DNA of 64,000 nt, from assembly GCF_026151205.1 (NCBI RefSeq), contig NC_087075.1, forward strand, positions 3,136,359-3,200,358, in the 5' to 3' direction. A model generated the notes under the pieces. That model worked only from the letters and a program-made list of their open reading frames with translations, was not told the DNA's origin and did no database searches. A program made the position numbers and the translations under genes. Below, piece after piece: positions 14,633-58,600 of the stretch (within the stretch, counting starts at the first letter, position 1; the number at the start of each line of letters is the position of its first letter). This DNA comes from Bolinopsis microptera. Lineage: Eukaryota; Ctenophora; Tentaculata; Lobata; Bolinopsidae.

Positions 14633-15360
14633 ATATCATAATAAACCTACAATGTTTCTTGCAACCAAAATACAAATTCTAAACACAAAACAACCAGATT
14701 TTATTCAAAGTAAGCAGTTACAAGTTAATAACAATTTATCCTTAATTATAAATCAACAATAAAACTAAAAATATATAAATATTCGGTGATACAATAAGGA
14801 TTAGTCATAAAATAAATAAAAATTTAGATCCATGAAATGCTATTCTAACTTAATGTTTAGTATTTGATATGTAAACTGATCACTGTTTCATGTGTGACTA
14901 ATTTGCAATTTATAATTATGGTCAATATCTGGATCATCATCACTTTACTTTCAGATTCTTGCTCATATAATGTTTCCATCATTTTCAATTTGTTGCTACA
15001 TGCTATGAAAGTCAAAGTTTTTATATTTTTGGTATAGCTGTTTTATTATATAATTTATTATATATTTATATCTGGTTCTTTTGTCTTTGGGCTGAGAATT
15101 TGTATTTATTGACACGTTCAAAGTTGGGTATTTTGGTTGACGGATTGCGGATGTTACTCGTCTAAATTTCTTCGAAGTAGCGCGCGCCGCTTTCTTCTCG
15201 AAAATGGCCCGATGGCAAGTGCTACGAAGTAGCGCGCGCCGGGCCAGATCATTGACAATGGTCAAGTATTTTGGTTCACCTAACCATATTATAGGTTTAT
15301 ATAAGTAGGTATTAGTAGTATTCTATATTATATAAAAAAATTATATATAGTAGGCTATAC
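14633..15360. other. AT-rich spacer with duplicated 'cgaagtagcgcgcgccg'
   Basis: Mostly AT-rich with no gene seen. One GC-rich island carries a direct repeat of 'cgaagtagcgcgcgccg' near 15173 and 15225. Small minus-strand ORFs here have no recognisable features. Confidence 0.5.
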
Positions 15361-15369
15361 AGCTTTTTC

Positions 15370-23000: not shown

Positions 23001-23330
23001 ACAACAAAACGGCTGCGTTGGTTTGGACATGTCAGTAGAATGCCTGAAGATCGGTTACCCAACTATTTACTTGAATGGAAACCCAAGCATGGGAAGAGAT
23101 CAAGAGGCAGGCCTAGGAAGAGCTTAAATGATGTATTCATTGAGGATGCTGAGCAGAGATTGGATCGTAATGGACTCACGATTGATTGTATGAGAAGATT
23201 AGCTGCAGACCGAAAGGGATGGAGAAATGTTACCCGCCGAAGTTGTATAATACAAAGTAATGACGCAGTCGACGCAGACTAATCCTTTTGGATGGAGATC
23301 TCGCCATGTAACATGTATGTATGTAAACTT
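20067..23330 (+). mobile_element. RTE-type LINE with uninterrupted 1071-aa ORF
   Basis: One ORF (20067-23282) encodes an apurinic-like (EEP) endonuclease, residues about 70-315, then a reverse transcriptase, about 560-900, with FIDFKAAFDSINRDF, GTGQGDVQGPPIFN and the catalytic DYADD near residue 793. It ends in a basic tail with RWFGHVSRMPEDRLP and GKRSRGRPRKS, as in RTE elements. A short (atgt)n run at 23310-23325 is the likely 3' tail. The endonuclease looks altered: D77 stands where the family has Asn (TWDV for TWNV), and the SDH motif reads T309-T310-H311, losing its Asp. E107, D214, N216 and D284 are kept. The element abuts the TRRAP 3' end in convergent orientation. Confidence 0.9.
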
Positions 23331-23415: not shown

Positions 23416-26400
23416 TTATAACCAAGGATACCATGCTGGGTCCAGTCTGCACAGATTCTCGGGGGTTGTTGTCAAACTTATAATGGAGGGTAACTTGCTT
23501 TCTGCTTTGTCAAAGTTCGCTGCCGTCTGTAGGCGTGACATTATCTGGTTCACTGCCGACTGGGGACGAGAGGGTCAATCTCAAACACAAGGAAAGTTTT
23601 ATTTGATTTTAAAGTTATTTTTGCTGATCACAGTTATACAATTTAGTTTTATTTTGAATTCAAAGGATATTACACTCCAATCCATTTAATTTTACCTGAA
23701 TATCTTCAATCATACTGATGACTCGCGGTTCTGTCATATCTTTGATACTAGCTTGTACTTCGTCTTTCAATATGGCGGCCAGTATCGCCTCCGTGCCTGA
23801 AAAGTACGAGCACTTACAAAACGTAACATTTCTATTCAAATACACAAATAATCTTAATGTTTGAAGGAAGAAATTGTCATAGCTCAAAAGTCAAAGGTTA
23901 ACATTTCAATTTCACGAGAAAAAAGACTTATTACTACTACTATTATTATTATTCCGTTATTACTCCGTTACTATTATTATGATCAGGAGATTAGGACAAT
24001 TATTCTGAAAACTGGTAGACAAGACTACTAACCTAGTTTAGGGTCGATAAGACACCTTGCAGCAGCTATCATGGAGAATACCATCGGACCCGAGAGAGAT
24101 ATTGGACCCATCAGTGTAATCATGTTCGGTGTCAGACGGAACGGAATATGCTGCTCGTGTACAAACTCTCCTGAGGTAATGAAGTCACGTGAGCTGAGGG
24201 AGTGCGACATTACTTGAAAGACATTTTATCTGTTCAGAATACCCCTTCTATTGTTGCAGTCTCCTTCACTTACCGGTTTCCTTGCTGATAGGGATATGAT
24301 AATGTACAGTGGACAAGGTGCCAGTCTCCTTCACTTACCGGTTTCCTTGCTGATAGGGATATGATAATGTACAGTGGACAAGGTGCCAGTCTCACTCACT
24401 TACCAGTTTCCTTGCTGATGGGGATATGATAATGTACAGTGGACAAGGTGCCAGTCTCACTCACTTACCGGTTTCCTTGCTGATGGGGATATGATAATGT
24501 ACAGTGGACCAGGTGCCAGTCTCACTCACTTACCAGTTTCCTTGCTGATGGGGATATGATAATGTACAGTGGACAAGGTGCCAGTCTCCTTCACTTACCG
24601 GTTTCCTTGCTGATAGGGATATGATAATGTACAGTGGACAAGGTGCCAGTCTCACTCACTTACCAGTTTCCTTGCTGATAGGGATATGATAATGTACAGT
24701 GGACAAGGTGCCAGTCTCCTGTGTTATGTAGATGTGTTCAGGTTTGAGACTGCTGAGGAATAGAGCGAACTGGACCAAACAGTCGAGGGCTGTTTGTCGG
24801 GTTATCTGGTGCCGGAAACTCCAGAACATTACCGGGTCTGGGTACGTCTTCTTAGCCCAGTCTGAGAGAGGTCAACTAATTAGTTAATTAGGTAAACTAA
24901 TTGGTTAATTAGGTATACTAATTAGTAAATTAGATCATCTAATTAGTTAATTAGGTCTACTAATTAGTTAATTAGGTCTATTAATTAGGTTTACTAATTA
25001 GTTAATTAGGGCAACTAATTGGTTAATTTATTAATAGGTTAATTGTGTAATGAGCGAATAAGTTTGATGATTCTATTTAGGTCCAATCTCCAGTGAGAGG
25101 ATAAGATTTGGTGAGAGGATAAGTGCCATGATATCATGTGAGAGTGTGTGACGTCACGTGAGTTTGTGTGACGTCACGTGAGAGTGTGTGACGTCACGTG
25201 AGTTTGTGTGACGTCACGTGAGAGTTTGTGACGTCACGTGAGTTTGTGTGACGTCACGTGAGTTTGTGTGACGTCACGTGAGAGTGTGTGACGTCACGTG
25301 AGAGTTTGTGACGTCACGTGAGATTAACTTACCTAGGAGTACAGTGGGAGGAAGAATGTTTGTCTGTATAAAGTGGTATATTTTGTTCAGAGCAATACGG
25401 TTTAGCACTGATCCCTCGTTCTGCATTCGACCTGAAATAATTAACCAACTAGTTAATTAGCTAATTGGGTTACTAGACAATGAGTTTGTTTATTCTGCAT
25501 CTAATCTTGCGGAGGACAGCACGTTACGCAGATTTACAAAGTTACCTAACAGTTTACAATACGAGCAATCAATAATATCTTTCCAATTAACCAGTTATCT
25601 CTCAATCGACCAATTAGACCCTAAATTACCGAGCTGTTCGTAATAGTAAGCAATAGGGGCGTCTACCTCCATTTCTGGGGACCTGTTCTTGCAATACCAC
25701 CTGCATTATATTATTGGTGTTTTAAATAAATAATAAACATTAAACAGTCATAAAATATACACTGATTGATCATTTAAATTTTAAATAAGTTTAATTTATA
25801 ATTCAGAGCATATATTACTGAGGGGGGGGGGGGGGGGGGGGGGGGGGCAACCATATTAAAGTATATTAAAATGTAGGATTTTTCCCGATTTTGACCCGGG
25901 GATATATTTTAATATACCTACAATATACTTTAATATATCCCTATCTCCTTGGAGGCCTACATCAAAAATTGTTGCCCAAAATAAGCTTGAAATGCAATTC
26001 TTAATCGATTCCAAAAAGTTCTCGAAAAAATATTGAAAACTGATGGAGTTATTTCAATTTTAATGAAGTCATTTTGGCTAGTATTCCGAACCGAGATATT
26101 ATGTGCAATTTTCCCAATTTTGTTCATGGAGGTCTTTTTACTTAGTATCCACTATATTCAACAAACACTGAGTTATATCTTTCACATTGAGTTAGTCTCA
26201 TTAAAAAATATTGAAATTTTATCGAATTTGGGCAAAAGCGAATTTGGGCAAAAGCGTATGCCCAAATATGGGCATATTTTTTAAAGCTCATAGCTCAGCC
26301 AATTTTTGACCAATCTGGATGTAAATTCATGTACTAGTCCTAAAACAGGCTTATCTTGCGAATCTGAGTGAAAAATATAGTTCATCATGTAAATCTTAAC

Positions 26401-28611
26401 GAAGAATATAAATCTTCTAATTGTAGGTATATTAAAGTATATTAAAATGTAGGATTTTTTCCGATTTTGACCCGGGGATATACTTTAATATACTTTAATA
26501 TGGTTGGCCCCCCCCCCCCCCCATTACTTTTTTACTTGTAGTGATATATATTAACCTGTATATTTCCAGAACCGATATGTTGCTGGTGTTGTCCTCTATA
26601 AGCCTGGACCCGGGCGCTGAAGCTACCACTTTAGGCACACTCCTGAGATTAATCAGTTAATTAATTAATTAATCAATTAATTAGAATTTCGATCAATTTA
26701 TACTCCCTGCAAAGTCCAACGAAATTGAAATTAGATTTAGAAGGTTTGAAGACACAGTTTGGAGAAATTATACCAATTCTCTAGAAACTCTAAGATTTAC
26801 AATTTAACCAATATGAACTCGTTATTTAGCAAATGTGGAGAAACCCATAGTTTTATACTCACCATTGTAAATTCCTGCGACAGGACTCTTTTCTCTGGAG
26901 TAGGGACTTGTTGAACATTCTTAACAGTTGTAAGAACCTGAAATATAAAGACACGTTGTAAGAAACTGAAATATAAAGAGAAATAATTGGTTGTGTTCAG
27001 CTTGGAACTGAGATTTATAAGTAAACTTGTAACAAGACAATACAATATTCATATAAAAGCTGCACAACCATTAAGTCTAAGTTATAAGTGATAACTGATA
27101 AAGAGTAAAGTAATTTTACAAATTTCTAACCTCTCTTCAGATCTGGCCAGTTTGACGTGAGATGAGGTGTTAACCATCAGATAAGGGTACACTTTACCGT
27201 TACTTCCCCTGTTAACACAATATATGGGTTAATAAAGAGTTTGAAATGGTTTAACACAACATCTAACGTTAAGCCACAAAATGTGCACTCGACCGGATAT
27301 ATAATTTAATGTGGGGAGAATTAAGATCTCACACAAACTACGAATAAACTAATTTTTAAATAAGTTCACACAATTTATTAAGAAAAATTCCATTAGTTAA
27401 AATGTATATTTATATACCGAATAAAGAGGCGCCTAGCAGTGAGGCTGTGTTTTCTGATCGTCTCAATCTTAGGTAGGAATCTAGCTATTTTCACATAGTG
27501 AGCTTTCGGGTTCAGGAACTCTCCGATAAGGTAGACCTCTGAGGAGTGTTTAAAATAGTTAAGATAAGGTAGACCTCTGAGGAGTGTTTAAAATAGTTAA
27601 GATAAGGTAGACCTCTGAGGAGTGTTTAAAATAGTTAAGATAAGGTAGACCTCTGAGGAGTGTTTAAAATAGTTAAGATAAGGTAGACCTCTGAGGAGTG
27701 TTTAACATAGTTAAGATAAGGTAGACCTCTGAGGAGTGTTTAACATGGTTATTGGTTAAGATAAGGTAGACCTCTGAGGAGTGTTTAACATGGTTAAGAT
27801 AAGGTAGACCTCTGAGGGGTGTTTAACATGGTTAAGATAAGGTAGACCTCTGAGGAGTGTTTAACATGGTTAAGATAAGGTAGACCTCTGAGGAGTGTTT
27901 AACATGGTTATTGGTTAAGATAAGGTAGACCTCTGAGGAGTGTTTAACATGGTTAAGATAAGGTAGACCTCTGAGGGGTGTTTAACATGGTTAAGATAAG
28001 GTAGACCTCTGAGGGGTGTTTAACATGGTTAAGATAAGGTAGACCTCTGAGGAGTGTTTAACATAGTTAAGATAAGGTAGCCCTCTGAGGAGTGTTTAAC
28101 ATGGTTAAGATAAGGTAGACCTCTGAGGGGTGTTTAACATGGTTAAGATAAGGTAGACCTCTGAGGAGTGTTTAACATAGTTAAGATAAGGTAGCCCTCT
28201 GAGGAGTGTTTAACATAGTTAAGATAAGGTAGACCTCTGAGGAGTGTTTAACATGGTTAAGATAAGGTAGACCTCTGAGGAGTGTTTAACATAGTTAAGA
28301 TAAGGTAGACCTCTGAGGAGTGTTTAACATGGTTAAGATAAGGTAAACCTTATCGTGAGAAGAGATATCTATATTAGAGATATCTATATTCTATGGCGAA
28401 ATTAAATTTAATTAAAATTAAACGAAAGTGAAACTAAAGTGAAACTAAAGTGAAACTAAAGTGAAACCAAAGTGAAACTAAAGTGAAACTAACCAGCGCT
28501 GGAACTACAGAATTTAGACAAGTAGGAGCAGCGTTCCTCCATATAGTTCTTACTATTGTTGCTCTGCGTCTTATCCAACATCTTAACCCAGCATTTCAGT
28601 GTCTTTAATAC
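23416..28611 (-). CDS. TRRAP: TRRAP exons 65-75 (pseudokinase and FATC)
   Basis: Exons: 28494-28611, 27418-27538, 27131-27208, 26863-26937, 26556-26642, 25630-25700, 25333-25431, 24664-24861, 24033-24170, 23696-23796, 23416-23559. Matches include IGEFLNPKAHYVKIARFLP (66), NGKVYPYLMVN (67), DWAKKTYPDPVMFWSFRHQ (72), HIPFRLTPNM and LSGPMVFSMIAAARC (73), ILAAILKDEVQASIKDM (74) and ENLCRLDPAWYPWL at the end (75). The catalytic Asp/Asn and DFG positions of active PIKKs are not present around HYHIPISKETGEF, as in other TRRAPs. The exon 66 acceptor and exon 72 donor belong to arrays of about 21 and 7 copies. Confidence 0.95.
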
Positions 28612-31600
28612 CTGCAGTATAATTCAGTAAGATGGTTATTGTTCATATCCTTAGTAAGAGTAGGAGAAATAAAATATTCTTCCACAAAAGGGAAAAAGTC
28701 GTGCCTCAAATATACATCCATCTACTGAATACTGGACTCCGACAGAAGGGTGAACGAATGAACTTAGGACAGTGATTTCAATTTGGTGGTTAAGTAAAAC
28801 CACTCAGTCATTCTATTCTCACTAATCAAATAGTAACCCTAAAGTTTAAATATTTACACCAATTCTTCTCCTCACTAAACATACATAAATAAATAACAAG
28901 AGGATGGGGGAGGCACTTTTTACCTTATGTAGCTTCTTGCCCTGGTTGTTACTGAAATCAAAATCAGCTTCAAATCTTTGTTTAATGGTAGTCTGCTTGC
29001 TAGCGTCCCTAGATTTTGCTGGAACTGGAGAATATTGTGTTTAAATTCTAGAATTAAGGAGAGATTTTCAAGGAGATATTTAAGGAGATATTCAAGGAGA
29101 TGTTCAAGGAGATATTTAAGGAGATATTTAAAGAGATATTTAAGGAGAGATATTTAAGATAGTGATGATCTAAGTAGCAATCTCCCGTGAATCACATACT
29201 CAGTAGTGACATTACAGCCGAAGCTTTAAACAGAACGATTAAAATAATCTCCCGGGCTGAGATGAGGAATTGGACAACTATAATACCCAAGCTCGGAATT
29301 AAATGGTACATCCCCAAAAGGTGGTCGTTTATAACTGATGTAATGTGACGAACCAGTGTTGAGGTACTGCATAATCCCCGGTTATGTATTTGTAAATCTG
29401 CTGAGATATCTTCACGTTCAACACGTCTTGTCTGTGGTCAATCTCAAATGCTTCGGTCTCGCACATTTGTATAACTGTGTATAACTTCTGTAGAACCTCG
29501 TCGTACCTGAGGTGATGACGTCACGTGAGGGAGTGTGACGTCACGTGAGGGAGTGTGACGTGAAAGCAATGATAGTATCTAAAACAGTCAGGACTAGTTC
29601 CCCATCCTAACTTCTCCGTTGCCATGGTTACTCACCAAGCATCCTTCATGTAGTGTAGAGTTTCTATGATACTCTCCAGTGCGTTCAGCATAGTGGGGTG
29701 TATCTCTCTTAGCACGTGCAGTAGTTTGTTACACCTGATTGTTACTTGTTTAGCACGTGCAGTAGTTTGTTACACCTGGTTGTTACTTGTTACAAGTAGT
29801 TCTTATTTACAAATAATGAGATTGACAAAAAGTAAGAAAAAACGTTAGGCGGAACTATGCAAACGCAAAACCAAACGTTTTCCTTCGTAAAGTAAAAGAG
29901 CTTCAAGTTTAATTCGTTCTTATCTACATTTTCACTAGTATAATCCTGAAAGCAAATCTTGTGATACACCCCAAGGGGGAGGGGGGGGGGCCAATGACTA
30001 CCAATGGAGACTTTTGGGGACTAATGGGGACTAAAAATCATGGGGACTAGAGGTCAACTCGTTGCCGTAATTCACCATTTTTCCCCATAAGTCCCCAGAA
30101 TTTTTGACAGTTATTTATGGTTTTCAAGTTAGTTTATACGATCGAGATGTTTTGTCCAAGATAAGAGTAGGATAAATCTAAATGGGGACTAATGGAGACT
30201 TTTGGGGACTAATGGGGACTAAAAATCATCTAAATGGGGACTAATGGAGACTTTTGGGGACTAAAAATCATGGGGACTCGGGGTAAAATCGTTGACGTAA
30301 TTCCCCAAGTCCCCAAAAGTAGTCATTGGCCCCCCCCCCCCCACCCCAAGACTAGGGAAGACTAGTTACAAAATTCTAACCAAGACATCCTAGGTTTGAG
30401 TCTAGCAAACTCTGGGGGCTGATCAGGAATGTCCTTCTTCATAGGGTCCCCGTCAGGTAGGTTCCTGTTATACTCCACTACACTCTTGTGTCTAGCCATA
30501 ACCTCCTGGTATTCTCCTCGCACTGAAAATACGGAGTCACGTGAGCTGGAGTTTGTGACGTCACGTGAGCTGGAGTTTGTGACGTCACGTGAGCTGGAGT
30601 TTGTGACTTCACGTGAGCTGGAGTTTGTGACTTCACGTGAGCTGGAGTTTGTGACGACACGTGAGCTGGAGTTTGTGAGGTCACGTGAGCTAGAGTTTGT
30701 GAGGTCACGTGAGCTGGAGTTTGTGACGTCACGTGAGCTGGAGTTTGTGACGTCACGTGAGCTGGAGTTTGTGACGTCACGTGAGCTGGAGTTTGTGACG
30801 TCACGTGAGCTGGAGTTTGTGACGTCACGTGGACTGGATTATGACGTCACGTGAGCTGGAGTTTGTGAAGTCACGTCACAGCATTTTAGTGCATATGCTA
30901 CTTCATAAGTTGAATATAAACATGGCTATTGCGAGTCGTTTGCACTTGTCCAGAAGTCTCTAGCCATAACTCATGCATAGGTGCATACATATTTTGCGAC
31001 AAAACTATTTGAAGGACAATTTCAATTACTTAAAAACAAGGCACTATCAAGATGATGGAATTAAAAACAAAAATTTAACGAGTTATAATTAGTAACCTGT
31101 AAGGTAGACGTTTCTTATAGGAAAGTAAAGAGCCTGAGGGTGGACTCTGCCAATTGTTTGTAGAATAGCATGGAATACCCGGGCTTCCTTTGAGCCCAGT
31201 CCAGCAAGCAGCTGTGGAACCCACTCCAACCACTTCTCTGGGGTTATCACGTGGGTTAGAAATAACGTCACGTGGGTTATCACGTGGGTTATCACGTGGG
31301 TTTTAAATAACGTCACGTGGTAAACTTTAAATCATGTGTGCTAGAGATTTCGCTTTCTAAAAACAAAAGACGTCAAATGAAAACGTCAAAATTGAAAATG
31401 TACAGCTACGAAAACAAACCAAGTTATACAATGATAAACATTAACTCAGAACGAACCGATATGAACGCTGGTATGGAACTGTTCCAAACACTTGGACAGC
31501 ACCTCCTCAACAGAGTCAAATGTCAGCAGCCACAAGATACGAGATATGTATCTCCGAACTTTGGAGTCGTCTTTCTGTTTACTGCAAGCCTGACAAGTAA

Positions 31601-34600
31601 TGTCGGAGTTCAGAGCTGGTACCTTTTATTACGGTCCAATGTTTTCTACTATATTCTTTTAAAAACCAAAAGTTTCATCCGAATAACATATTCACCAAAA
31701 TTAACATACAATGTTCTAATTTATAATTAACATAAAGTTCCAACCAGAAGCATATCCACAACTACAGATAAGAACACCCCATATAATAACTAACTAACCT
31801 GTAAATAACAAGCAATAGCACTCTCCGCGTGGTACAAGTTAGCTTTGTAAATATTGATCCGGTCCATGGGACTAATCTTCTCCTGGCTCGCCTTCTCCAC
31901 CTCGTTCTGGAACAGCTCGTCACTGTACTGGGCCCACAGTGCCCACGCTCCCGGTACTTGGTCATTAGTCTGCAATTAAAGGTCATTAGTCTGCAATTAA
32001 AGGTCATTAGTCTGCAATTAAAGGTCATTAGTCTGCAATTAAAGGTCATTAGTCTGCAATTAAAGGCTGTGTCTAAAAAAGTGTAATTTAGTGACTTTTT
32101 TGTCTCACAAAGGGTATGTTTTATCCTTGTTTTGCCTTTGGAAATGTTCTATGTGGAAACTGACGGGAAAATAATAGGGAAAAAAAAGATTTTGAGAAGG
32201 TTAGTGTAAAAAAGTGTAACTTAGTGTACCTTTTTTTACTACACTTTTTATGTGTATAAAAAAGTCAAAAGTGTAGTGAACACTGTACAGTTTACAGTTG
32301 GGGACACCGGACAATCAGTTCGACCTACCTGTATAGCTAGCCAGATGTCTTATCTCAGACTGTCCGCTATACCCACGTGACTAAACCACGTGACTAAACC
32401 ACGTGACTAAAACACGTGACTAAAACACGTGACTAAACCACGTGACCTACCTGTATAGCCTGTGAGAAGGTCTTCATAGAATCTTCACTTCTCCCCAACA
32501 TAGCGAATATGTGGGCTTTATGAGAGAGAATATCTGCCTTGTGCTCCGGCTTGTTCATTATCCTCATGTTCACCCCTAGCGTTATTAATTAATTTAATAA
32601 CTAGCGTTAGTAATTACTTTAAATTTAATAAGACTCTTGTTTAGTGCAAATGATTTTAAATACCTAATGTTACATATCAATATATTTTAGTAATCACTAT
32701 AATCTGCTAAAAATGTTCATTCTTCAACAACGTTATCGCTCGGTTCAAACACAAATTACAAGAAGAAGAAAGCGAAAGTGAAAGAGAAACAAACCCTCAA
32801 TAACGTCAAGAGCAGCCAACAGGTCCTGCTGAGAAGCGGGAGGCAGCAAGTGGACCTTGATCTGCTCCTTTAGCTTCTTGTGACAATCAGTCAGAGGTAC
32901 ACTGGGAATGGTGTGCACTCTGGCCAGCCACTCTTGTGCACTAGCTGATAACCCGTGCTTTCTAGCTAGACTCGCGTACGTGACCTGCAACAGGTGAGTT
33001 GGTGAAAGTGAAACTAATATTTAAACATTTGGTGAATCAAGTTGAACAAGTGAAAGTGAAACTAATTTAGAAACAGCTGATGATGATGAGACATTTATGA
33101 CAATTCGAACTAAATAAAGATTTACTTGATATAATGATTTATAAAATGAGAAACATTGCTCGTTACAAACAGAGCATTGCTCGTTACAAGCAGAACATTG
33201 CTCGTTACGAACAGTACTAAGTACGTTACCAAGGTTACTCACCATGGTAGTCGCAGAGCTCTGCTGACCAATGAGAAGGAGGTTGGGAGCGTTAGGATCT
33301 GCGTTAAGATCGATACCGGGCTGGGCATCCAGAGCAGTGTACACCTGCAACGTGACGATATAGATTATGTGTGACGTCATATATTATGTGTGACGTCATA
33401 TATGATATGTGACGTCATATATGATGTGTGACGTCATAGATTATGTGATGCCACAAATCGCGACAGAAAAGTCAGGTTGTTTTTAAACAATCTGACATTA
33501 TACCTTCAAGAACTACTTGACTTCAGTCTGAAAAATAACATTTATCCGACTTGTTAACGCCACAGACGATCATGATTTCCCAACCATGTCGATAGTCAGC
33601 AACATTAAGGACTACGGGTGGAAGATGAATAATTAAAATTCCAACAGCATCTTGTTCCCTTCATTGTGCTGATTCCGGGAAGCATTCTCTTTACGCTCTG
33701 ATCATACTTTAGAATGAGATATCGTTTAGAGGAGCTGCGCAATTATGGCATCATCTGGTATCATCTTCTGAAACCCAGCACTGAGTAACATCACCACAAT
33801 CATTTGTCATCTCACCTGACCTTTAAAATCCAAACGATATGTGACTAATAAGTAATAGCACTATAACACTCACACAGAAAATTAGATAACACACATTATG
33901 TTCCTTCTACAGTATATTCTCTACTTTGTGAAATCACCGTTTTCTTGCGTTCCTGAGTTTACTAATACTAAATACTTCTCTCATGCTGTTTATAGTCCAG
34001 TTACTAGACTATTGGCATTTCCTGTTCATTAAAAATTCGGAATCATCATCTCCTATAGTTTTCAAGTCATTCCTATTGTTTCGATTTTGGTATAAGATTA
34101 GAATTCCAAAGGGGGGCTTAACGTGCCAGCTCCACACTCTGATAAAATTAGAGTACGTTACATTCTATGAGATCATCGCACATAACTTTGAGTTTGTTTA
34201 TCTTCGCACAAATCTTGTTTCTCTTCGCATTGATCTAACAATTCGTGCTGTTACCTGTTGATACTTAATTCTAGGCTCTTGTATCGCTTCAAGACGTAGT
34301 ACTGTTCCGGGTAAAAGTTTCTGAACGATTTTTTCCAACTTTAATATCTGTGAAATTGAACTGCAATTAAATAATACGGTATCTCCAACAAGCCTTCTCT
34401 ATTACATATCGCACGAATGTTTTATATAGTGGGTACGTTGGTATTACCAAGGTATACTGTATAATATGCTTAAATAAACATGATAAAGCCAACTTAAACA
34501 TGATATTACATTTTCTTTTAGATCATCATTAAAATGAACGAAGAAACAATAATCATAAAGCTGAAGGACGGAGACCCGCTGAATGTCTGCAAACAGATAT

Positions 34601-37600
34601 TAACGAAAGCGGAAAGACAGCCGAATGTTCCGCTACATGATACAGGAACTGAATTATGATGAGCTAGACCTGGAAGACTTCAGCTCTGTGAGTGTAACAT
34701 TATTTGTTAAATTATTGGACGATAAGAGTGTGGGAGATTTGGAGACAGCTCAGTTTAAGGAGCAACAGAAGTTAGGTCACGTGTTCGAGGTGGTGTGGCT
34801 GGTGAAGGAACTTAAGGAATGGCTGGAATGCAGGATGGAGAAAGCTGTGACGGATGAGGAGAAGTTGTTTGCTTTTGAAGAGTCCCTCTATATAAGGAAC
34901 AAGTGGGAGGAGCATGAATTAATGAACGGTTTTATGAGCAGGTTTTCTGGAAGGTACAACTATTCATTCGTGTTGCAGTACATGACAGAGTGGGGTAAAT
35001 TAGATTTAGACGTTGTTCAGATTGATCTCATGTTGATTCTTGGAGGATGTAATACTGAACTTTTCCTTCGAATAATGTTAATGAACTTGGAAAACAATAA
35101 AATCCTGGATAAAAACAGTAAGTATCTTCTAAGCCGAATGGATCTCACACTTTGCTGGGAGCAAAACAAAGATCTGTTTTTAGAGATGTGTGAGAAGATA
35201 CAAGATTTGTTGAATATTTCAGCAGAGGATATGAAATATGCGTTTAAACTGACTACAGAGGTAATGCAATCAGCTAGTTCCCGTAGCACACACACAAAGG
35301 AAAGGACTACAGAGGTGTGGAACCTTGGTAAAGACAGTAAGGTGTCGAGCAGTTGTAAAACAATCAACAGTTTTACAGATGCGATTGCAGGGAACAGCAT
35401 CACCTCCATGTTTAAAGTTGTTGAAATGCTGCTTGTAGTTTTCTACGAAAATCCTCCAACCACGGAAGAAACAGAAGCATTTATTAAAATCTTGGAATCA
35501 TCCTGCAGAGACAAACACCTCCAAAAGGTCTCGAAGCAGCACCTGGATATGATGATCAATACCTTAAACTACTCTCCTTTATCGCAGAGAGTTGAGCTTA
35601 TCTCAGTGTTGAATGAAATAACCAATAACAACCAGCTTTCTAGTTATCATGAGAATGTTACCCTAAATCAGGATAAGTTGATAGCCGTTTCACCAGGTAT
35701 TGGACAAAGAGTACTCAGTTCATTGAAACATTTCTTCAACAGAGATGAAAGTTTATCATCAGGCACTGCTTACAATTATCACTTTTCTTTTAAACACCCG
35801 GCAATTACATCACAGTGTACAGAGCCTGGTAATTGCGGATTCATCTTGAAGAATTGTAAATACAGAACACAAGGCACCGGCAATGTGAACTTTAACTGGG
35901 TATATAAACTGTGCTCAGACAACAGCGACTATAATGGAACAGGACTACATTTGCATGATGTGATCTCTGCTAGTGACATGTACCTTTCTGATACTGTGTC
36001 AGGTAACACAGCATCTGATATCAGGGTTCCGGTAACAGCAGGGGCAGGTAATTTAAGTGTATTTTGGTGGGGGAAGTGGTTACCAGATATGACTTACTGG
36101 CAGTATAATGAGCATATCTCTGAACTATCTTATAACGTATCTGATTACGTTGTCGCTAAACATGACTAATCATACACTCCGCAAGACTGTCACATGATTT
36201 ATTTTAAGTGTTTTATTTTATATTTTGGTTTTTGTTTTAAATCATGACGTCATTACAAATAATGTTAACATTTTTAATACGTATTCTACTGTAATACTGC
36301 CTTATAAGTTCTGTGTATTAAATCAGTTGATTTAACAGCTAACTTCATAACAAAGCGACTTAGTAACCGAGGCATTAGATAACCACTCATCTTACTAATT
36401 AAAGAGATACAATCATGATATTCCCTTGAGCCCTTGGTAATATAGATTGACTAAAATCAAACAAGAAAGCATTCAATGATGACCAGGTCCAATAACTTCC
36501 TCGGCCTCTATGATATCATATTGTCAACAGTATGATATTTAATTCTGGTGTTTGATTGGTCAATAGTCGAAGCTGAATGGTCTGTCACATGTCAAAAAAA
36601 TATGTTTCCAAGAGAAAATATCAAAAAATATCAAATATAGGTCATGTGACGTAACACCAGGTCATGCGACGTCACACCACGTGATATGACGTCACGCCAC
36701 GTGATATGATATAAAATGTTGTAACTTACCTCAATGATTTTCTGATGATAGTGCTGTCTCCAAGAGAAGATATCGTTCCAGTGCCCGATATCATCAGATA
36801 TGACAGGCGGTCTATTTCTCCACGCTTTCAATGTCGCCTTGATGTCTATCTTGCCTGCGTAACAGATACGTTACAGATACGTAACAGATACGTAACAGAT
36901 ACGTTACAGATACGTTACAGATACGTTACTCTACGTAACACAACTCTACGTGGATAATTAATTGTTATTACAATATATTTCAAGTACTCTGGTACCATGG
37001 TGATGGGAACTAAAGAAAGCACGTACTATTAGGAATACTAGCGCGGTTAGGAAGCAAGTTCTTCTGGATAGACTGAGACTCGTGCAGCTCGGTAGCTTGC
37101 TGCGCGAATTGTAACAATGGCACGTGCACGTTTCCCACTATCCGTGGCAGTTTTCTCCATTGTCTGAGCGCGTTTATGGTAGCTTGTTTCCAGTGTGACT
37201 CTACCGGGCCCTGAGGGTTATGGGGCTGGTGAGTGGGAGTGTTTTGTTAGGCGTTAGCTGATCATAAAAACTGAGATATTTATCCATGTGTTCGAGAAAT
37301 ATGGACAGAAATATGTTTTAGCGTTTAAAAATAATATGAATTTTCTTTTGTGTTCGACAAATAAGCATTGAAATATATATCTTGTGTTTGACAAATAATA
37401 CAAAATATTTCCTTGTGTTTGGCAAACCTCAGGACCAGGATCATCGTCCTGTTGAAGGGCGAGATAACCCTTGTAAAGTGAGACAAGGTGGGACGCTCCG
37501 TCCGGCATTATCCTGTCCGCCTGTGTAATACAGAGCAGTCAAAGTGAGGAAGTAAACATGATTACAAATTACAGACAATCAGATGAACGGATTATCAAAG

Positions 37601-46600: not shown

Positions 46601-49600
46601 ACTCGTCATGTTTTCAGGTTCCATGAAGACGTTGATATGGTTAACTACTAACTAGTCACCAAGTAACTCACCCTATTTTCAGGTTCCATGAAGACGTTGA
46701 TATGGTTAACTAGTTACCAAGTAACTCACCCTATTTTCAGGCTCCATGAACACGTTGATGATATTCTCTGCCGGGTTTGCATTTCCGTCTAGTCCCTGAC
46801 TTCCTTCAATAAGTTTCTCTGTGTCGTTCTTCTCGAACGAGTATTGGAACATGGGTACTATGATGTACTGTAGGATTTTACCTGTGAAACAAGGTTTTTA
46901 TTTTATTACATTATGTTTAAGTAGATTAGAAATGGACACAGATTTGTTGCTGGAACTGGGAGGAACGCGCATTTAAACAAACTCAAAAACTAGGTTACTT
47001 CTTGACTTAGTAACTAAGATTAGGCACAATCTATGTTTAATAGTAACTAACAATGCAACAAATGAACCGAATTGTAATATATTAGTAACTAAATAACAAC
47101 TAAATAACAACTAAATAACAACTAAATAACAACCAAATAACAACTAAATAACAACTAAATAACAACTAAATAACAACTAAATAGTAACTTAACAAAGGAA
47201 GCATCAATTATTAATTTACCCTTGAGCTCCTGAGTCCAGCGTGGTGGACGGCCCTGTACGTTAGGAGCCTGGAATATCTCCACAAACTTAAAGAAACACG
47301 CTCTCCTCTGATCTATCGTGAACCTAGGAGGAAGATGTATTATGGTTAATGTTCAGCCAAACTTTATAACAGAAAACGTCTCCAGCTCTTGAAATTGTGT
47401 GAAAAGTAAAAGGAACACTGACTTTATGATTCCCAGAAAAGGGAACATCATTATAACTCCTACACAGAAAGGAGATGAAGAGCAAATATTAATTAATTAA
47501 TTACCCTTCTATAACATTGTTTTGAATGTGATCTTGCAGGAACTTTATGTTAGGGACGTAGATCGCATCGTAGATCCGGAGAAGTTGGAACAGCAACTCA
47601 AAATCGTGTGGGTTGCACTGTAGATACCTCAACAAACACTTCGCCAACAGCTAGGGAACATCAATCAATTAGCTAATAGAATAATTAGGTAATAATTAAA
47701 TAATTATCAGTTAACTAGCTTTGCAAATAATTACACAAACAAATTTGATTATAATTTTTTGGGTACTCGATCACAAAACCAGCCTAAACAACTGGAAACT
47801 TAGTTACGAATCCAAAAACATCCTGTGAATAACAGAAATCGTGACAGTCTCTCACTTATTCTACATACATCATAACTATAATGCAAATGCATTAGCCCTA
47901 ACCTTAGGTTCACGCCACTGGTGAGTGGGTATCTGTAACTTATCAGGGTTCTTGAACCGCTCTTGAAACTGAGCCTGGTTCCAAACTGCCCGGAGGTGGT
48001 TCACTATCTCTCGGTTCTTGGAGAGGAAGTCCGGTTCGTGCTTCACCAGCAGCGAGATTATCAGGGTGCCCTGGGGTGATGATGTGATTAATTCAAGCTA
48101 GTAATATCAATTATTATGTAATAGTTTATAATAATTTAGAATGTAATAGCTCAATCGATTAGTCCACGTGACATTGTGATGACGTCACGTGACAGTGTAA
48201 TGACGTCACGTGACAGTGTGATGACGTCACGTGACAGTGTGATGACGTCACGTGACAGTGTGATGACGTCACCAACCTGGAAGAGAACCTCCTGGTATCT
48301 CATACTAATATCTGAAATGGCAGTGTAATCCCCATCGTGTGTCTGTTGGCTGATAGCCCCGAGTAGGTTCATTGGCATGCCACACAGGTGAGCTCTTAGT
48401 GGACCTGTGTAGTGTGCTAGTTACACAGCAATAAAGAACTATTGACACAAACTAACATACACACGAACAATGAACATACACACGAACAGACAAACTAATA
48501 AACAGACAAACTAACGAACACACGAACAGACAAACTAACAAACACACGAACAGACAAACTAACAAACACGTGAACCAGCGAACTAACAAACACGCGAACA
48601 AACAAACTAACGAACACACGAACAATGAACATACACACGAACTGACAAACTGACGAACACACGAACAGAGAAACTAACAAACACACAAACTAACAAACAC
48701 ACGAACAATGAACATACACACGAACAGACAAACTGACGAACACACGAACAGACAAACTAACAAACACACAAACTAACAAACACACGAACAGAAAAACTAA
48801 CAAATACGCGAACATACAAACACACGAACAGACAAACTAACAAATACGCGAACATACAATCTAACAAACAAACAAATTAACAAACCAACCTCCTTCGTTG
48901 TGTTTAAGGAAGTTGTAGAACATTCTGTTCATGCTGGGTTCGTGAAGTTCCTTCAGGAACAGGTCAATAGCATCACCAGGGTGCTTTAGCACGTACTTAA
49001 ATAAACCCTCCTAAGGTGATTACAGGTTTGAGAAATCTGTTCAACAGTATATTATATCAGGGTGCGTTGGGCTTGTGGAAAAGCAATAACCATTCTTGCA
49101 AGAAATCAGCTATTTCGCAGAAAATTAAACAAATCCGCGTGTTGATTTTGCTATTGCTCAACATAAAATAGACATGAAAACAGAGATAAATAGCATTAAT
49201 GCTATATAATATTACCTGGAAAACAGAGATAAAGTTATAATGTTACCTGGAAAGGACTGCCGACCTCCACATTAAGATATTTCTCAGCTCTAACTACGAG
49301 AGAGATAAGCGTGCTGAAGAAGTTTTTAGAGGGAGGTGGAACCAGATGAAATGTGTTGATTATTGCTTTGCATCGGAGTATTTCCTCTGAGAAACCGTTT
49401 GGAGTTCGCTGTGATTTAATTAGCTCATTAATTAATAAAATTATAGTTAATTGATTATTTGGATTCATTAAACGTTTAAAACTCTTGCTATGTCTAGTGT
49501 CTACATAAGAAGATAAGAATTTAGGGCATTACAAACCTTGATGGAGTGCTGGTGAGGGCATTACAAACCTTGATGGAGTGCTGGTGAGGCATTACAAACC

Positions 49601-52600
49601 TTGATGGAGTGCTGGTGAGGGTTGGCAGAGAAAATATAATTCTCCATCCACTTTTTAAGATGCTTCAGCAGCTGGTCGCAGAGCTTGTCATTAAACAGAG
49701 TGGAGAACAGTTCCATTAAGTGGGTCAGAACCTGAAGTTAAACAGATTAGCTAATTAGTTAATCACATTTAATTATATTAGCTAAGTAGATGATTGTTTT
49801 TGTTACCCCGCTTATACAGAATATAATTGAACAGAAACCCAGTTCAAATTGTTCGCCATCTAACAAAGTGTGAGTATGTTGTATGTGTAGACGAGGGAGG
49901 GTGGGGTCGGGGCACGAGCAGTGGCGTAACGTTGCCTGTTGGCGCCCCCTATTGGCATCAGGCACCCCCTCCCTAAAATTGAACAAATTAGGTGATTTTA
50001 GAAGATACGCCGGTAAAATCTCTTAAGGGGGGTGGGGGGGGGTGCACGAAAGGGGGAGGGGCCGGGGGCAGTAGAAAACATCCCTCACCTCCAGAAGATG
50101 GACAGTAAGATGTTTCCAGTCGGTAAGCTGAGTTAACAAGGGTCGGATCTCCTTGTGGACAGTGTCCAGTACTATGTCATCCTTTTTGTTCTTCTGGTAG
50201 AGCTGGATGGAGTCTTTAGCACAGAGCTGGAGCTCCTTGTCTGTGCCGGTGAGGATATCGTACATTACCTGAGAGATAAGGCTGGTGAAGAAGGCGTTAT
50301 CAGTGCAAATAGATTGGAATTTAAGATAATTTAGTAGTAGTGGTAGTAGTAGTAGTAAAGATAATGACTAACTATGTTATCTGCACAAATAATGACACTG
50401 GGATATCAAGTTTATAGTGTATACTGTATAGTGTATACACTACAAACACTAAAAACACTACAGGAGCGGCAGGAGGTAAAACGTGATATTAATATTTGGT
50501 CACACCACGTGACATTTAAACTCCAAACCTTGAAAATCTCAGGCTCGTGTTGAGTCAGATAATGGCAGTAGGAGAGGACTTTGAGAGCAGTTTTCTTCAG
50601 AAGAGTGATATTGGAGGATTTCTTGTAGCAGCTGAACTTGCTCAGTAGTTCCGCAGGAGAAAGACCACAAATAGTCAGTACTTCTTCCAGCTGCTTCTTC
50701 CTGCCCTGCCCTTCAGCAGTCGGCTGAGGGGAAGATGATTATGCTGACTTGATTAAGAACAGTTATTTCAAATGATTGAATTTGTTAGATATTGCCAAAC
50801 ATTGGGAAGGATGTTTCCAGGGGATCACTAACCGTAACATCCAGGGTAATGAGTCTCGGTTCTAGAGACGAGCAGAAAACAATTGACTCCATACAGGCGA
50901 GTTGTTTGGTCTCAGGAAGTGTGAATAGGGACTGCTTCTTAGGCCAAACCTGAACAAAGACTAGCTTTTAAAATTGGAGACAGATTTAATTTCTTCGTGA
51001 ATTCTATACAATGCGCGCGAAGTGGAGCGTGCTTGGCGCGTAAATCTTAAGAGCCACGTAAAGTCCGTTTGGCGGCCGCGCCATCCGCAATTCACTAACA
51101 AAGCAAAAGATCACATTTGCGGGAAACACTGCCAATCATAGTTAAAAACATCGGCATTTTATGAGTGAAAAAAATGCTCATAGATACACATTAACAAAAC
51201 GAACCGTCTCCGTTATAAGATCTTTGGGAAGGCTGGGAGGTTCCAACATTTCCTTGACGGTTTTACCGGTGACCTCGGAAAGTACCAATAATGCCTGTCT
51301 CGCTTGCTTTCTGACCACTGGATACGGAGACATAATATCTTTTACTAGCAAATGTACTACCCCGTGGAACACCTGAATAAACATTAACTTGTTACAAATC
51401 TGTTACACATCTGTTACACGTATGTGATATGTTGCACATCTGTTACAAATCTGTAACACATTTGTTACATAGATACATTTTTATAATTGTGATTGTTTCT
51501 ATTGTTTGTCTCTTGGCAATTACACAACAACTAATTAGACTTTCATCTGAATAATATAACACAACTTTAGCACAGTTAAAAACCCCTTATAAAACACCTT
51601 CTCCTGAGCGGCGCTTATAGCAGGTAACGGGTTAGGAGTGTTACAGTGTCTCATTATCTTCTCATAGAGAGCCTGGGCTCTACCCATGGTACCGTACGAC
51701 ACTTCCTCGTGTAGATCTAGTGGAATATGGGTTTTCGTGGATAACTTTGTTCATAATTATTAATACTGTGTAATGATTCTGGGGTTTGATTGGTCGATAG
51801 TCGAAGCTGATTGGTTAAATTCTGTCACGTGCCAAAAGATACGCCTCACCTCCCACTAGATTCCACAACTTTAACAGTCTCCTTAGATAATTTCGTTCAT
51901 ATTTTTTCGAATAATGGATACATTTTTGTTGAAATGATGGCACACATGCGAGGTAAGTACTATTAATTACCTATCATGATGTAAATTGTAGCGTTGATGA
52001 ACAATTGCTGATTTCGTATCGTCCTGAAGTTAATGTTGACAGTCAAATTAAAACACTAAACTAACATGACTATAAACATTTACATCGTGATGACTCAGTC
52101 ACACAATACACAATTACACAACCAGTCACATGATTGGTAAAGTCACGTGATAGCAATAACAAAGTCACGTGATAACACTAACAAAGTCACGTGATTACCA
52201 TAATAAGGGAGCATTGTTGATGAGCCACTCTATCGCAGTCACACCCCCGACCTTAGTGTACCAGGCCCGCTCATAACACAAGTCCACACAACTTATCCAC
52301 CAACACGTCAAAGAAGGGGATCTGGAACGCGCGCTCAGCGGACCCTAGTGGAAATAAAGAAATAGTAGACTTGATAGAAAGCTATCAATCAGAGGAAGGA
52401 ACTAACACCACGTGACACAGTACTAGTCTTGACTTCTTGGTGAGGAATGAAAATTAATTATTATCACAACACGTTTAAAAGCACTAAATAACAGTTCCTT
52501 ACCAAGAATATACTTGCAGGTTTCTGTAACAAGTCTTATAGCTTTCTCTCCAATGTTCGCTAGTTCACTCTGCTCCGAGCCCATACACTCAGCTATAACG

Positions 52601-55600
52601 TCTACTAGCACGTGTACATCCAGCGAGTTTGTGGACTGAGGTGGTTATTATCAAATCATCACACGTGTTATAAAGTCACGTGACGTCACGCCATGTTTTG
52701 TGACGTCACGCCATGTTTTGTGACTATAATCACGTGGCGCAAAAGAGAATTATGTTTAATAACAATTATACCAAAACTTTATTACTTCCACATGAGAAGC
52801 TAAACTCTAACAAATTAGAAGAGAAAAGAGAAAAAAAAAGATTATAAAAAGGAAGAAAAAAAAAAGAGAGAAAGAAGAAGCTAGAGAAAAGAAAAGAAAC
52901 TCCAACAAACTTACCTTCTTTTTTATTGGAAAGACACCAGACTGCTGAACAACTGTCAATAAAGAGAAATGCCTCACAACGCTCATCATAAACTGGGTGG
53001 TGTCCGTCCTTAACTGCTTGGTTGCTGTAGCTACAAACAAACTGAAACACAAGGAAATGTTCTAAAGCAGTATTATCTGTAAAATATATATAGTTAGTCT
53101 AATTATGATTTTCTGAAAACAAAACAGGGTAAGTTTTACGTTCTTGTTATAATAACTATGGATACGTTAGCAGCACCCATCTAATCATAGACTTCAAATC
53201 ACGCTCCATCATAGACTGTTTTACTCTGAATTTCACTCTGGAAATATTATCGAATCCTTTACTGTAATATTTTATAGTAACAAGTTAATAGCTTACTAAT
53301 TAGTTAATAGCTTACTAATTATTTAATAGCTTACCCCATCAAGGCAGTCTTGAAAGCACTTCTTGTAGGTTCGTCTGTGCAAACAAAGCTGTTTTTAGGG
53401 GCAACTTGAGGGTGGGGGGCTTGAGACTGCAATATTACACAATTACTCTTTATTGCTACAAAATTGGGAAAATGGTCACTTAATTGAACAAGGTTAACCT
53501 TACCCTTTCCTTTCATGAAATCTCAAAACAGTACTAACACGGTGTCACGTGGTGTTAGTAACACCACGTGACACAAACAGATAACTAAGCATGTAGGATG
53601 TTGCACCTGTTTTCTACTGATAGTAGCGAGAAGCTTCTGTATCTGCAACGTGGTATCACCAAGGTTTATCATGGCTATAATATAGCTCTGACACACGTGT
53701 AAACTGTGCTGCATGTAGAATAAGTCCTTGTTCGGGGACTTTAAGATGTGGAGGGCGTGATCAAGTACCTGAAATAGGGATTAGCCAATCATGAGCTAGT
53801 ATCTTAGACACTTGATATAATTCTCAAATTGATAACGAAGAATTCTTGTTTACATAAAAAATTATTGATTCATAATATACGATAAGTTCTAAAAACTACA
53901 TACTATTTTTAAGTAAATATTATGTAAATTAACACAATTAATATTAACGTTTAAACAACACTCCCGATTAAAACAAGGAATTCTCACCCTCTGAATAGGA
54001 AGCTTGACAGGGTAGTTGCAGTTTGGGAACCAAACCAGTACACTAGCTGCAGTAGCGTCTGGGTGGACGTACTCTAACTTTGGTGCGTCTTGTAGTGTCT
54101 TTCTGTTCCGTGCACCGCACTTACCTGCACGTGCAAATGGTTACAATTTCACACGGTGCACGTGCAAAGTAGTACACGTGCAAAGTACAAGGGTTAATAT
54201 GATGATATATAACCCCCGCCCCAGCACCTCGGTTGACGTTTACTAGAAGCAGTCCTTAGATTGCTCCTCTTTTTGCAGAATGATATGTATTGGTCTCAAA
54301 TCCTGCTCTAATTTTATCAGGTTAAACTTTACACAAATAAAAATAAATCCTTGTGTTTGAACAAGGTGAACATACCGAGCACTCTGAAAGCGGTTTTAGC
54401 GTTGTTGTCGTTCTCACTAGAGTTCTGCAGGGTTTGCCATAAAGACTGTATCAACTCAGCACGTACTGGCTTCCAGAGTTTTTTAATTAGTTAATTAATT
54501 AATTCTTTAGTATTTAACAAACTTTTACAGAATTATAGTTAGTTTATGAGTAAATATGGCGATTATTTTTAACAACTTGATCCAAACCATTAGAATATTT
54601 ACATTATGGACTACCACCTCATTCAGTTGAAACTTCAAAAAGTAACTTGATATATTAAGAGATATCCATAATATTACTTAAATATACCTCTATTTTATCA
54701 TAGAAGAAGTTTGGTTGTAAGTTATCAATACAGAGCTCCAGAGTTCGTAACCCTTGCGCTATTAACGTATTTGATCCTGCACCTCAAGGAAATTTGTTAT
54801 CAGAGAGTATTACAATTAATGGTACTTAAAAACGTTTTCCACATTTTTGTTATTATATAATACTAGAAAGCCCGTGGTAACAGGGACGAAGCTAGTAGTA
54901 TTCTTTGAAAGAAAGTTTTAATCGCATCAAAAAATATCCATCTCAACCGAAGATACAGCCGATTTAAATAGAAAACACTTTAAACACAACGTAATTACCA
55001 CAAAACCGATCAAAATGACGTTAAAACAATCTTTGCACGTGCACGTGCGCATTAAAACACCGTTGCTATGGAACGTTTTGGTTGTTACCTAAATTCCTAT
55101 TTTTCGTCTAATTTGCACGTGGGCGGTCGTACATACATACATACAACAAAAACAATTCTTTGAATTATTATATAACTAGAAAGCCCGTGGTAACAGGGAC
55201 GAAGCTAGTAGTATTCTTTGAAAGAAAGTTTTAATCGCATCAAAAAATATCCATCTCAACCGAAGATACAGCCGATTTAAATATAAAACACTTTAAACAC
55301 AACGTAATTACCACAAAACCGATCAAAATGACGTTAAACTTAAAACAATCTTTGCACGTGCATGTGTGCATTAAAACACCGTTGCTATGGAACCTTTTAG
55401 TTGTTACCTAAATTCCTATTTTTCATCTAATTTGCACGTGGGCGGTCGTACATACATACAGCAGAAATAATTCTCTGAATTATAGTAGAGATATACTAGA
55501 TCCGATTTTTATTCAATATTTTATGTCCCCGGGGGTTCCAAATAAGCGTTTGGAGGTTTTATATTTTTAGATTTAAAACGATAATAAGTAGTAACCCAAA

Positions 55601-58600
55601 AAATCTATTTCAACATTGATATAAAAATGTAAAGTATGTAAAATATCACAGGGTTTACCATTGAGAGCGGACACAAGGGGGTCCATTAGAGCAGGAAGAT
55701 AAGGCAGCAGATTACTCAGTCTGACTGGTACCTGTAGTTAATTAGCTTAATTAACAATTAACTCATTAATTATCTAGTAATTAATAAGTTTAACTCGCCA
55801 TCAATTTCACTCATTCACGAAACTTATCCGGGTTCACATTATAATAATGTTTGATATTAAACGGTTCATGGTTTATATTTAGTCAGTCACCAAAATGGGT
55901 ACGAAATAATCTTAGCATAAAATATTATCACGTGGTTACTGCAGCTGTCACGTGGTTACTGGCTCGTACCGTTAAACAGAGTTCTATAAAGATATCCTTC
56001 ATCTGTTGTTTGTGTACACCGCTCTGGAGTCTGTTCAGACTCTGCAGTAAACTGGGGAGGAGCGGGAGGAACTCACTATACATCTCATCATACTTCGTAC
56101 TGGTGCTGCCTGAGGTGTGAGGTCACTATTTAGCTTACTCGTTAATCAATTAAATAATCAATTAGTTGTACTGGTGCTGCCTGAGGTGTGAGGTCACTAT
56201 TTAGCTTACTCGTTAATCAATTAGATAATCAATTAGTTGTACTGGTGCTGCCTGAGGTGTGAGGTTACTATTTAGCTTACTCGTTAATCAATTAGATAAT
56301 CAATTAGTTGTACTGGTGCTGCCTGAGGTGTGAGCTTACTATTTAGCTTACTCGTTAATCAATTAGATAATCAATTAGTTGTACTGGTGCTGCCTGAGGT
56401 GTGAGCTTACTATTTAGCTTACTCGTTAATCAATTAAATAATCAATTAGTTGTACTGGTGCTGCCTGAGGTGTGAGGTTACTATTTAGCTTACTCGTTAA
56501 TCAATTAGATAATCAATTAGTTGTACTGGTGCTGCCTGAGGTGTGAGCTTACTATTTAGCTTACTCGTTAATCAATTAGATAATCAATTAGTTGTACTGG
56601 TGCTGCCTGAGGTGTGAGCTTACTATTTAGCTTACTCGTTAATCAATTAGATAATCAATTAGTTGTACTGGTGCTGCCTGAGGTGTGAGCTTACTATTTA
56701 GCTTACTCGTTAATCAATTAGATAATCAATTAGTTGTACTGGTGCTGCCTGAGGTGTGAGACCGTTACTATTTAGCTTACTCGTTAATCAATTAAATAAT
56801 CAATTAGTTGTACTGGTGCTGCCTGAGGTGTGAGCTTACTATTTAGCTTACTCGTTAATCAATTAAATAATCAATTAGTTGTACTGGTGCTGCCTGAGGT
56901 GTGAGGTTACTATTTAGCTTACTCGTTAATCAATTAGATAATCAATTAGTTGTACTGGTGCTGCCTGAGGTGTGAGCTTACTATTTAGCTTACTCGTTAA
57001 TCAATTAGATAATCAATTAGTTGTACTGGTGCTGCCTGAGGTGTGAGCTTACTATTTAGCTTACTCGTTAATCAATTAGATAATCAATTAGTTGTACTGG
57101 TGCTGCCTGAGGTGTGAGCTTACTATTTAGCTTACTCGTTAATCAATTAGATAATCAATTAGTTGTACTGGTGCTGCCTGAGGTGTGAGACCGTTACTAT
57201 TTAGCTTACTCGTTAATCAATTAAATAATCAATTAGTTGTACTGGTGCTGCCTGAGGTGTGAGCTTACTATTTAGCTTACTCGTTAATCAATTAGATAAT
57301 CAATTAGTTGTACTGGTGCTGCCTGAGGTGTGAGCTTACTATTTAGCTTACTCGTTAATCAATTAGATAATCAATTAGTTGTACTGGTGCTGCCTGAGGT
57401 GTGAGCTTACTATTTAGCTTACTCGTTAATCAATTAGATAATCAATTAGTTGTACTGGTGCTGCCTGAGGTGTGAGCTTACTATTTAGCTTACTCGTTAA
57501 TCAATTAAATAATCAATTAGTTGTACTGGTGCTGCCTGAGGTGGGAGGTTACTATTTAGCTTACTCGTTAATCAATTTAATAATCAATTAGTTGTATGGT
57601 TATCATTATTTTCTTACAATAAGAAACCTTATTCCAGTGCTTAAACCTCAGAATAACTGAATTACCTATAGCCCTGAAGAGTAGTCTCAGTAGCGTAAAG
57701 TAAGGAGCAGGATCTTTAGCAGTCTGCGCTAGCACCATACTCTGGTTAACTATCCTCTGTAGGTGAGGCTTCAGTATACCGTCCGCTTCCACGTCATCAC
57801 GGTCACCACCTGATAGTGAAAGTGAAAGTGAAAGTGAAACTGTTAATCGTACTCTTGACATCAATAAAGTCACCAACAACAAACAACAGCACGTATGAAC
57901 AAATCTAAACATGGTATATGAACCACGTGACTAAATTCAACAATCGAAAACAAAGCAAATATACTCGTACCCTGATTTTGAACGGAACCGAAGAGTAGTT
58001 TAAAGAGTCGGGTGTAAAGGACGGGTCTGTCGTTAGCGTCACTTTCTCCTAGTCCCATATCTTCCAGTTTGTTTACAAGGTATTTAGCTAGCTGACACGC
58101 GAATATAGCGGAGCAAGGAGAGTTGTGCAGCATGCTGTCTCTCGATACTGAAACACAAGATTTTATATTTTAGTGTGCTGTCTCTTGAGACTGAAACACA
58201 AGGTTTTATATTTTAGTGTGCTGTCTCTTGAGACTGAAACACAAGGTTTTATATTTTAGGGAGCTGTCTCTCGATACTGAAACACAAGGTTTTATATTTT
58301 AGTGTGCTGTCTCTTGAGAGTGAAACAAAAGGTTTTATATTTTAGTGTGCTGTCTCTCGACACTGAAACACAAGGTTTTATATTTTAGTGTGCTGTCTCT
58401 CGATACTGAAACACAAGGTTTTATATTTTAGTGTGCTGTCTCTTGAGACTGATTAAGGAATCAAACATGCAAAATTTAACAACTACTTCTCAAATATAGC
58501 TTCAAACATTAAAGCACAGATTAGTGCTAGACAAACTTTTGATCCTGGGGGTTTTAGTAGATATCTTAGGAACCCAACATCGAATTCGATGTATCTTAGG

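Follow-up and report, generated by a model that had tools for sequence, protein, structure and literature searches.

The 64,000-nucleotide window analysed here, from contig NC_087075.1 of the ctenophore Bolinopsis microptera, holds on its minus strand the 3' part of a TRRAP/Tra1-like gene. Nine splice junctions of this gene sit within tandem arrays whose repeat unit joins exon bases, the splice site and intron bases. The acceptors of exons 7, 9, 59, 63, 67 and 69 and the donors of exons 25, 32 and 73 are spanned, and each array includes 10–55 exon bases. The arrays are probably minisatellites of the type called "mirages" in amphioxus, arising by local tandem duplication throughout the introns and retained where the mRNA stays unchanged.

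The gene was recognised from a minus-strand chain of open stretches that together make up TRRAP/Tra1 coding sequence (all positions are those of the window):

23416–64000, minus strand: TRRAP/Tra1-like gene, 3' part, defined by phmmer against human TRRAP and by the exon model.

Its 5' end falls beyond the window. Four predicted protein pieces matched human TRRAP with E values of 2.1e-164, 1.6e-165, 6.6e-142 and 1.7e-106, and all four scored higher against it than against yeast-type Tra1, so that the gene is likely to be of an animal-type host. Identity to human TRRAP was 269/585 (46%) over six hand-picked aligned blocks. The gene finder was custom-built and trained on the open stretches, and its output was then edited by hand according to homology. 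From 76 initial exons, exons 4 and 19 were removed as unsupported and exons 47 and 48 were merged, which left 73 exons; the borders of exons 20, 23, 24 and 56 were placed by hand. Some exon choices and the joints 25/26 and 68/69 were set partly by reference to human TRRAP residues outside these alignments. The final model has a coding length of 10,191 bases, and its 72 introns measure 242 bp at the median. GT is present at 72/72 donors and AG at 71/72 acceptors, and the single acceptor without AG is probably the hand-set border of exon 24, off by about a base. Frame shifts were seen on the minus strand within two conserved exons, exon 47 (39015–39210) and exon 18 (about 52199–52345). These may be indel errors of the assembly or signs of a damaged gene copy, and the shift in exon 18 leaves the position of its acceptor uncertain.

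Repeats were collected by two methods. Arrays from Tandem Repeats Finder (TRF) were excluded when the period was below 8, the score below 50 or the position within three stretches of mobile or nested open reading frames (ORFs), which left 44. A diagonal scan for units of 10–200 bp gave 56 tracts. TRF arrays clearly cross eight of the nine junctions; the duplication at acceptor 69 was missed in this set and was picked up by the diagonal scan, which did not score donor 25 (because of an indel) or donor 18 as spanning. The TRF spanning set therefore counts nine arrays, with donor 18 and without acceptor 69. The arrays and their decoys, that is, the extra copies of the splice site, are as follows:

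58133–58452, minus strand: exon 7 acceptor array, 43 bp x 7.4; exon start 58147, 15 exon bases; 6 decoys, AG in 5.
56097–57600, minus strand: exon 9 acceptor array, 71 bp x 21; exon start 56109, 13 exon bases; 20 decoys, AG in 20.
49523–49621, minus strand: exon 25 donor array, 32 bp x 3 (unit length 31/32); exon end 49600, 22 exon bases; 2 decoys, GT in 2.
46649–46759, minus strand: exon 32 donor array, 58 bp x 1.9; exon end 46730, 30 exon bases; 1 good decoy, followed immediately past the array (46606) by a third copy that lacks GT.
31960–32066, minus strand: exon 59 acceptor array, 21 bp x 5.1, the only spanning unit length divisible by 3; exon start 31969, 10 exon bases; 4 decoys, AG in 4.
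29709–29791, minus strand: exon 63 acceptor array, 41 bp x 2; exon start 29734, 26 exon bases; 1 decoy, AG kept.
27525–28350, minus strand: exon 67 acceptor array, 38 bp x 21; exon start 27538, 14 exon bases; 20 decoys, AG in 20.
26927–26979, minus strand: exon 69 acceptor duplication, 28 bp x 1.9; exon start 26937, 11 exon bases; 1 decoy with AG, scoring below the functional site.
24257–24718, minus strand: exon 73 donor array, 65 bp x 7.1; exon end 24664, 55 exon bases; 6 decoys, GT in 6.
52139–52203, minus strand: weak spanning case at the exon 18 donor, 22 bp x 3; 5 exon bases, decoys degraded.

Every spanning array contacts one junction of its intron, and at least 65 bases remain to the other junction. 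In the exon 73 array, copies 2, 6 and 7 are identical, copies 1, 3 and 5 are alike and copy 4 stands apart, a grouping that suggests repeated turnover. A gene-finder run with a higher penalty placed six 11-bp microexons in this array; they were rejected, since splicing from the first donor yields a protein that matches human TRRAP well.

A preliminary description of this DNA had listed 12 junctions, and claimed at least ten, as duplicated together with the splice site. Its exons 58, 62, 66, 68 and 72 are the present 59, 63, 67, 69 and 73, since the present finder split one exon (47/48), so that its exon 57 is probably the present exon 58. It gave coordinates for one junction, and the others were matched by unit length and order. 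Nine of the 12 do span: the six acceptors were all recovered by TRF or the diagonal scan, and donors 25, 32 and 73 were recovered as arrays of 32 bp x 3, 58 bp (two good copies plus the third lacking GT) and 65 bp x 7. Two further donors, of exons 15 and 58, have arrays that only abut the junction:

53283–53334, minus strand: exon 15 donor, abutting array, 19 bp x 2.7, starting exactly at GT, with 0 exon bases.
32373–32446, minus strand: exon 58 donor, abutting array, 13 bp x 5.7, starting 4 bp into the intron, with 0 exon bases.

No array was seen at the donor of exon 57 of the present model. The remaining case, a twofold duplication at donor 26, is marginal: an imperfect two-copy likeness can be made out by eye, but neither TRF nor the diagonal scan detects an array.

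The spanning units are unrelated to each other, as had been claimed. A comparison of the nine spanning units in the TRF set, which counts exon 18 but not exon 69, gave longest shared words of 4–8 bp, no longer than in shuffled sequences (mean 5.9, maximum 10).

The same structure is known from lancelets, although it had been thought undescribed. Amphioxus mirages occur in Adh3, the globin genes BflGb6 and BflGb9, troponin C and PGBD5, with units from 10–72 bp (Adh3) to 150–160 bp (globin) (PMC3087553, PMC3902484). In lancelet PGBD5, 60- and 108-bp repeats abut or overlap splice sites, and Adh and troponin C are cited there as other cases (PMC3902484). Splicing is reportedly left undisturbed by the lancelet mirages (PMC3087553, PMC3902484). 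Instability in minisatellite length is also reported from lancelet. Mirages share with the TRRAP arrays tandem units that lie across an exon-intron boundary, 5' or 3', and splice signals in many copies, with the duplicates outside the authentic joint. Consistently, the TRRAP arrays have units made of exon, site and intron, occur at both boundary types, differ in unit from locus to locus and keep AG or GT. Unlike the amphioxus cases, they affect nine junctions within a single gene and reach as many as 20 decoys at a junction. The protein, with its 46% identity to human TRRAP over the chosen blocks, is probably too diverged to come from a lancelet. The TRRAP arrays thus appear to be a new and dense instance of an already described kind. 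Among the titles and abstract openings returned by a literature search, there was no gene-wide mirage count, no placement test and no case outside lancelets.

Two other systems differ from the TRRAP arrays. Intron gain by tandem genomic duplication (the Rogers model) likewise creates extra splice sites, as reported for potato RdRp (PMC4974935). In that process the duplicate covers a whole intron with both ends, whereas the TRRAP spanning arrays reach one junction only and display no new intron. Introner elements are repeated sequences linked to splice sites. They place a near-identical insert in many introns, in contrast to the TRRAP spanning units, which show no such likeness between introns.

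The number of spanning arrays was compared with chance. In the null model each array was collapsed to one unit and placed randomly in its own intron, and overhang across either junction was allowed because it leaves the mRNA intact; the test relies on the hand-curated gene model and takes the collapsed introns as the ancestral state. For the TRF set, 9/44 arrays span a junction, against 7.6 ± 2.2 expected (probability of nine or more, 0.33). For the diagonal-scan set the count is 8/56 tracts, against 7.5 expected (P = 0.49). The spanning counts are therefore near random placement and need no special process, and the idea that chance placement is unlikely is not supported for the spanning arrays. 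No array lies inside an exon (0/44 by TRF, 0/56 by the diagonal scan). If all bases were equally hit, about 13 of the 44 would be expected there, and the probability of none is 1.6e-7. Such an absence is the outcome expected from selection on the protein. Repeats cover 5–8% of the final 10 bases of exons and 24–30% at 16–50 bp into the introns, a rise without a peak at the junction.

These results are consistent with a simple course of events. Frequent local tandem duplication would turn over the TRRAP introns. When a duplication crosses one junction, the additional copies would land in the intron and the exon-proximal splice site would be kept, so that the mature mRNA is unchanged provided that this site is used. 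Such a duplication would therefore survive, and may expand to 20 extra copies, presumably through slippage or unequal exchange. Duplications within exons would be purged by selection.

Some results weigh against placement at random. When introns were drawn randomly, 5.2–6.3 spanning arrays were expected (P 0.06–0.16), which leaves room for a slight excess; when an ancestral intron of 120 bp was assumed, 17 were expected and the 8 observed are too few (P = 0.0016). Of the 48 non-spanning tracts, 17 have an edge lying 0–9 bp inside the intron, against 3.7 expected. Under the overhang model, 13/44 TRF arrays abut a junction against 4.9 expected (P = 0.00045). The count among diagonal-scan tracts under this model is 17 against 4.8 (0/10,000 simulations). 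Edges within 25 bp of the splice site were found for 27/48 non-spanning tracts (9.6 expected), and in 20,000 simulations neither the 9-bp nor the 25-bp figure was attained. The 9-bp effect was robust over subsets, namely TRF arrays (13/35 versus 3.9 expected), strong tracts (11/29 versus 2.0) and the strongest tract per intron (13/31 versus 3.1), each reached in fewer than 1 in 20,000 simulations. It was likewise seen with longer units or in introns with less free room. The distance bins were fixed after the distances had been seen, in a single gene, so these P values flatter the effect.

This pile-up is left unexplained by intron-wide duplication and fits, with partial support, a duplication process that starts at junctions, as the preliminary description had proposed. 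In such a process splice junctions would be the preferred starting points of tandem duplication, through fragility or template switching for instance, and the arrays would extend into the intron. We regard this as possible but rather unlikely. It draws on the edges of the exon-free arrays, on introns that after removal of their arrays have a median of 200 bp, close to the 216 bp of array-free introns (P = 0.37), and on the repeats of lancelet PGBD5, which reportedly likewise abut splice sites (PMC3902484). The average base composition also steps at the borders, from a GC content of 0.47 in exons to 0.36 in introns; our guess is that this step, or some other local fragility of the border, may lie behind the pile-up. 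On the other side, the spanning arrays show no clear excess and need no such start, repeat coverage does not peak at junctions, and the edge effect comes from bins chosen afterwards in one gene with a hand-curated model and no replicate. A wider version, in which junctions are hotspots for duplication start, spanning mirages are the exon-carrying tail of this process, and the process acts in a non-lancelet lineage and shapes intron length gene-wide, is at best tentative. Short ancestral introns (80–120 bp) were also considered as the cause of abutment. They would give 11–14 abutting tracts (17 seen), and the idea was ruled out, as it predicts 17–23 spanning tracts (8 seen) and array-free introns measure 216 bp.

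Alternatively, the abutting arrays could be old spanning arrays whose exon part has decayed, and true spanning events would then be more numerous. The pile-up does lie at the border of constrained sequence. However, the adjoining exon bases agree with the array register at 77/255 positions (0.30), near the chance level of 0.26 and below the 91/255 of the control side, so decay of spanning arrays is a very improbable source of the pile-up.

Intron-wide duplication with retention of neutral copies supposes that the exon-proximal copy is spliced. Across the nine junctions 62 decoy copies were counted, in which AG or GT is intact in 60. A decoy was accepted with at most three (acceptor) or four (donor) mismatches in 14 bases, so that more diverged copies are missed, and the count excludes one chance match beyond the donor 25 array as well as donors 15 and 18. 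Splice-matrix scores of most decoys are about those of the functional copy, and lower at exons 63 and 69. The intact dinucleotides and the scores could mean that the decoys are used, in regulated or frequent alternative splicing or in the birth of introns from arrays; the authors of the lancelet globin study propose that mirages give rise to introns (PMC3087553). Published RT-PCR (reverse transcription PCR) results from lancelet suggest regular splicing (PMC3087553). In TRRAP, none of the unit lengths 43, 71, 31/32, 58, 41, 38, 65 and 28 is a multiple of 3, so that splicing at the next decoy would break the frame at every spanned junction but that of exon 59. The alignment to human TRRAP is free of gaps at the joints of exons 63, 67 and 73 when the residue of the intron-split codon is counted (the query pieces omitted residues whose codon an intron splits), and no gap was found at the joint of exon 59. 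The joints of exons 9 and 32 differ by 1–2 residues, and exon 7 has six extra. The joints 25/26 and 68/69 were assessed against human TRRAP sequence outside these alignments. Protein homology and reading frame thus suggest that the exon-proximal copy is the one spliced, and decoys that score like functional sites are as expected if they are ignored. Use of the decoys seems highly improbable. An assembly artefact is the least credible reading, for although the apparent frame shifts in conserved exons 18 and 47 suggest base-level errors, the copies of the exon 73 array differ in a structured fashion and many unrelated arrays are present.

Other repeated sequences were found in the same introns. 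A palindromic core, GACGTCACGTG, recurs with variants over 24186–57929, for example at 25134–25323, 30536–30876, 42819–43101 and 48165–48272. A CACGTG or GACGTC core is present in 12/44 arrays, against 0.3 expected after shuffling, and two of these arrays, at exons 63 and 18, are spanning. Across the whole window CACGTG occurs 90 times and GACGTC 42 times, with 7.9 expected for each from base composition. The core is possibly a mobile or expansion-prone motif.

When six open frames were searched against Pfam, reverse transcriptases were found three times and an endonuclease domain once, and one further match fell below the cut-off. These frames and further features of the window are:

58457–59797, plus strand: RVT_1 ORF, in the intron preceding exon 7.
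15319–16719, plus strand: RVT_1 ORF.
20046–23282, plus strand: RVT_1 ORF, also with the endonuclease domain.
34604–36169, plus strand: open frame of 521 residues, antisense in the 3.4-kb intron that follows exon 55, with no Pfam match; perhaps a nested gene.
61917–62174, minus strand: open stretch within the intron that precedes exon 5, possibly transposase-like, with no Pfam match.
13729–14631: tandem repeat, 318 bp x 2.8, 99% matches.
1–634, at the window start: degenerate AGG-rich repeats and ATGTCTCCA repeats.

Over the whole window neither ARAGORN nor Rfam at its gathering scores gave a match, and a search of viral contigs with the protein of one exon confirmed no relative.

The mirages found in print are those of single lancelet genes, and the ctenophore TRRAP gene holds nine. 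It presents the spliceosome with as many as 20 strong decoys at a junction and would be a severe natural test of how the exon-proximal site is chosen. The pile-up of array edges just inside the introns, if true genome-wide, would indicate a mutational process linked to the borders between exons and introns.

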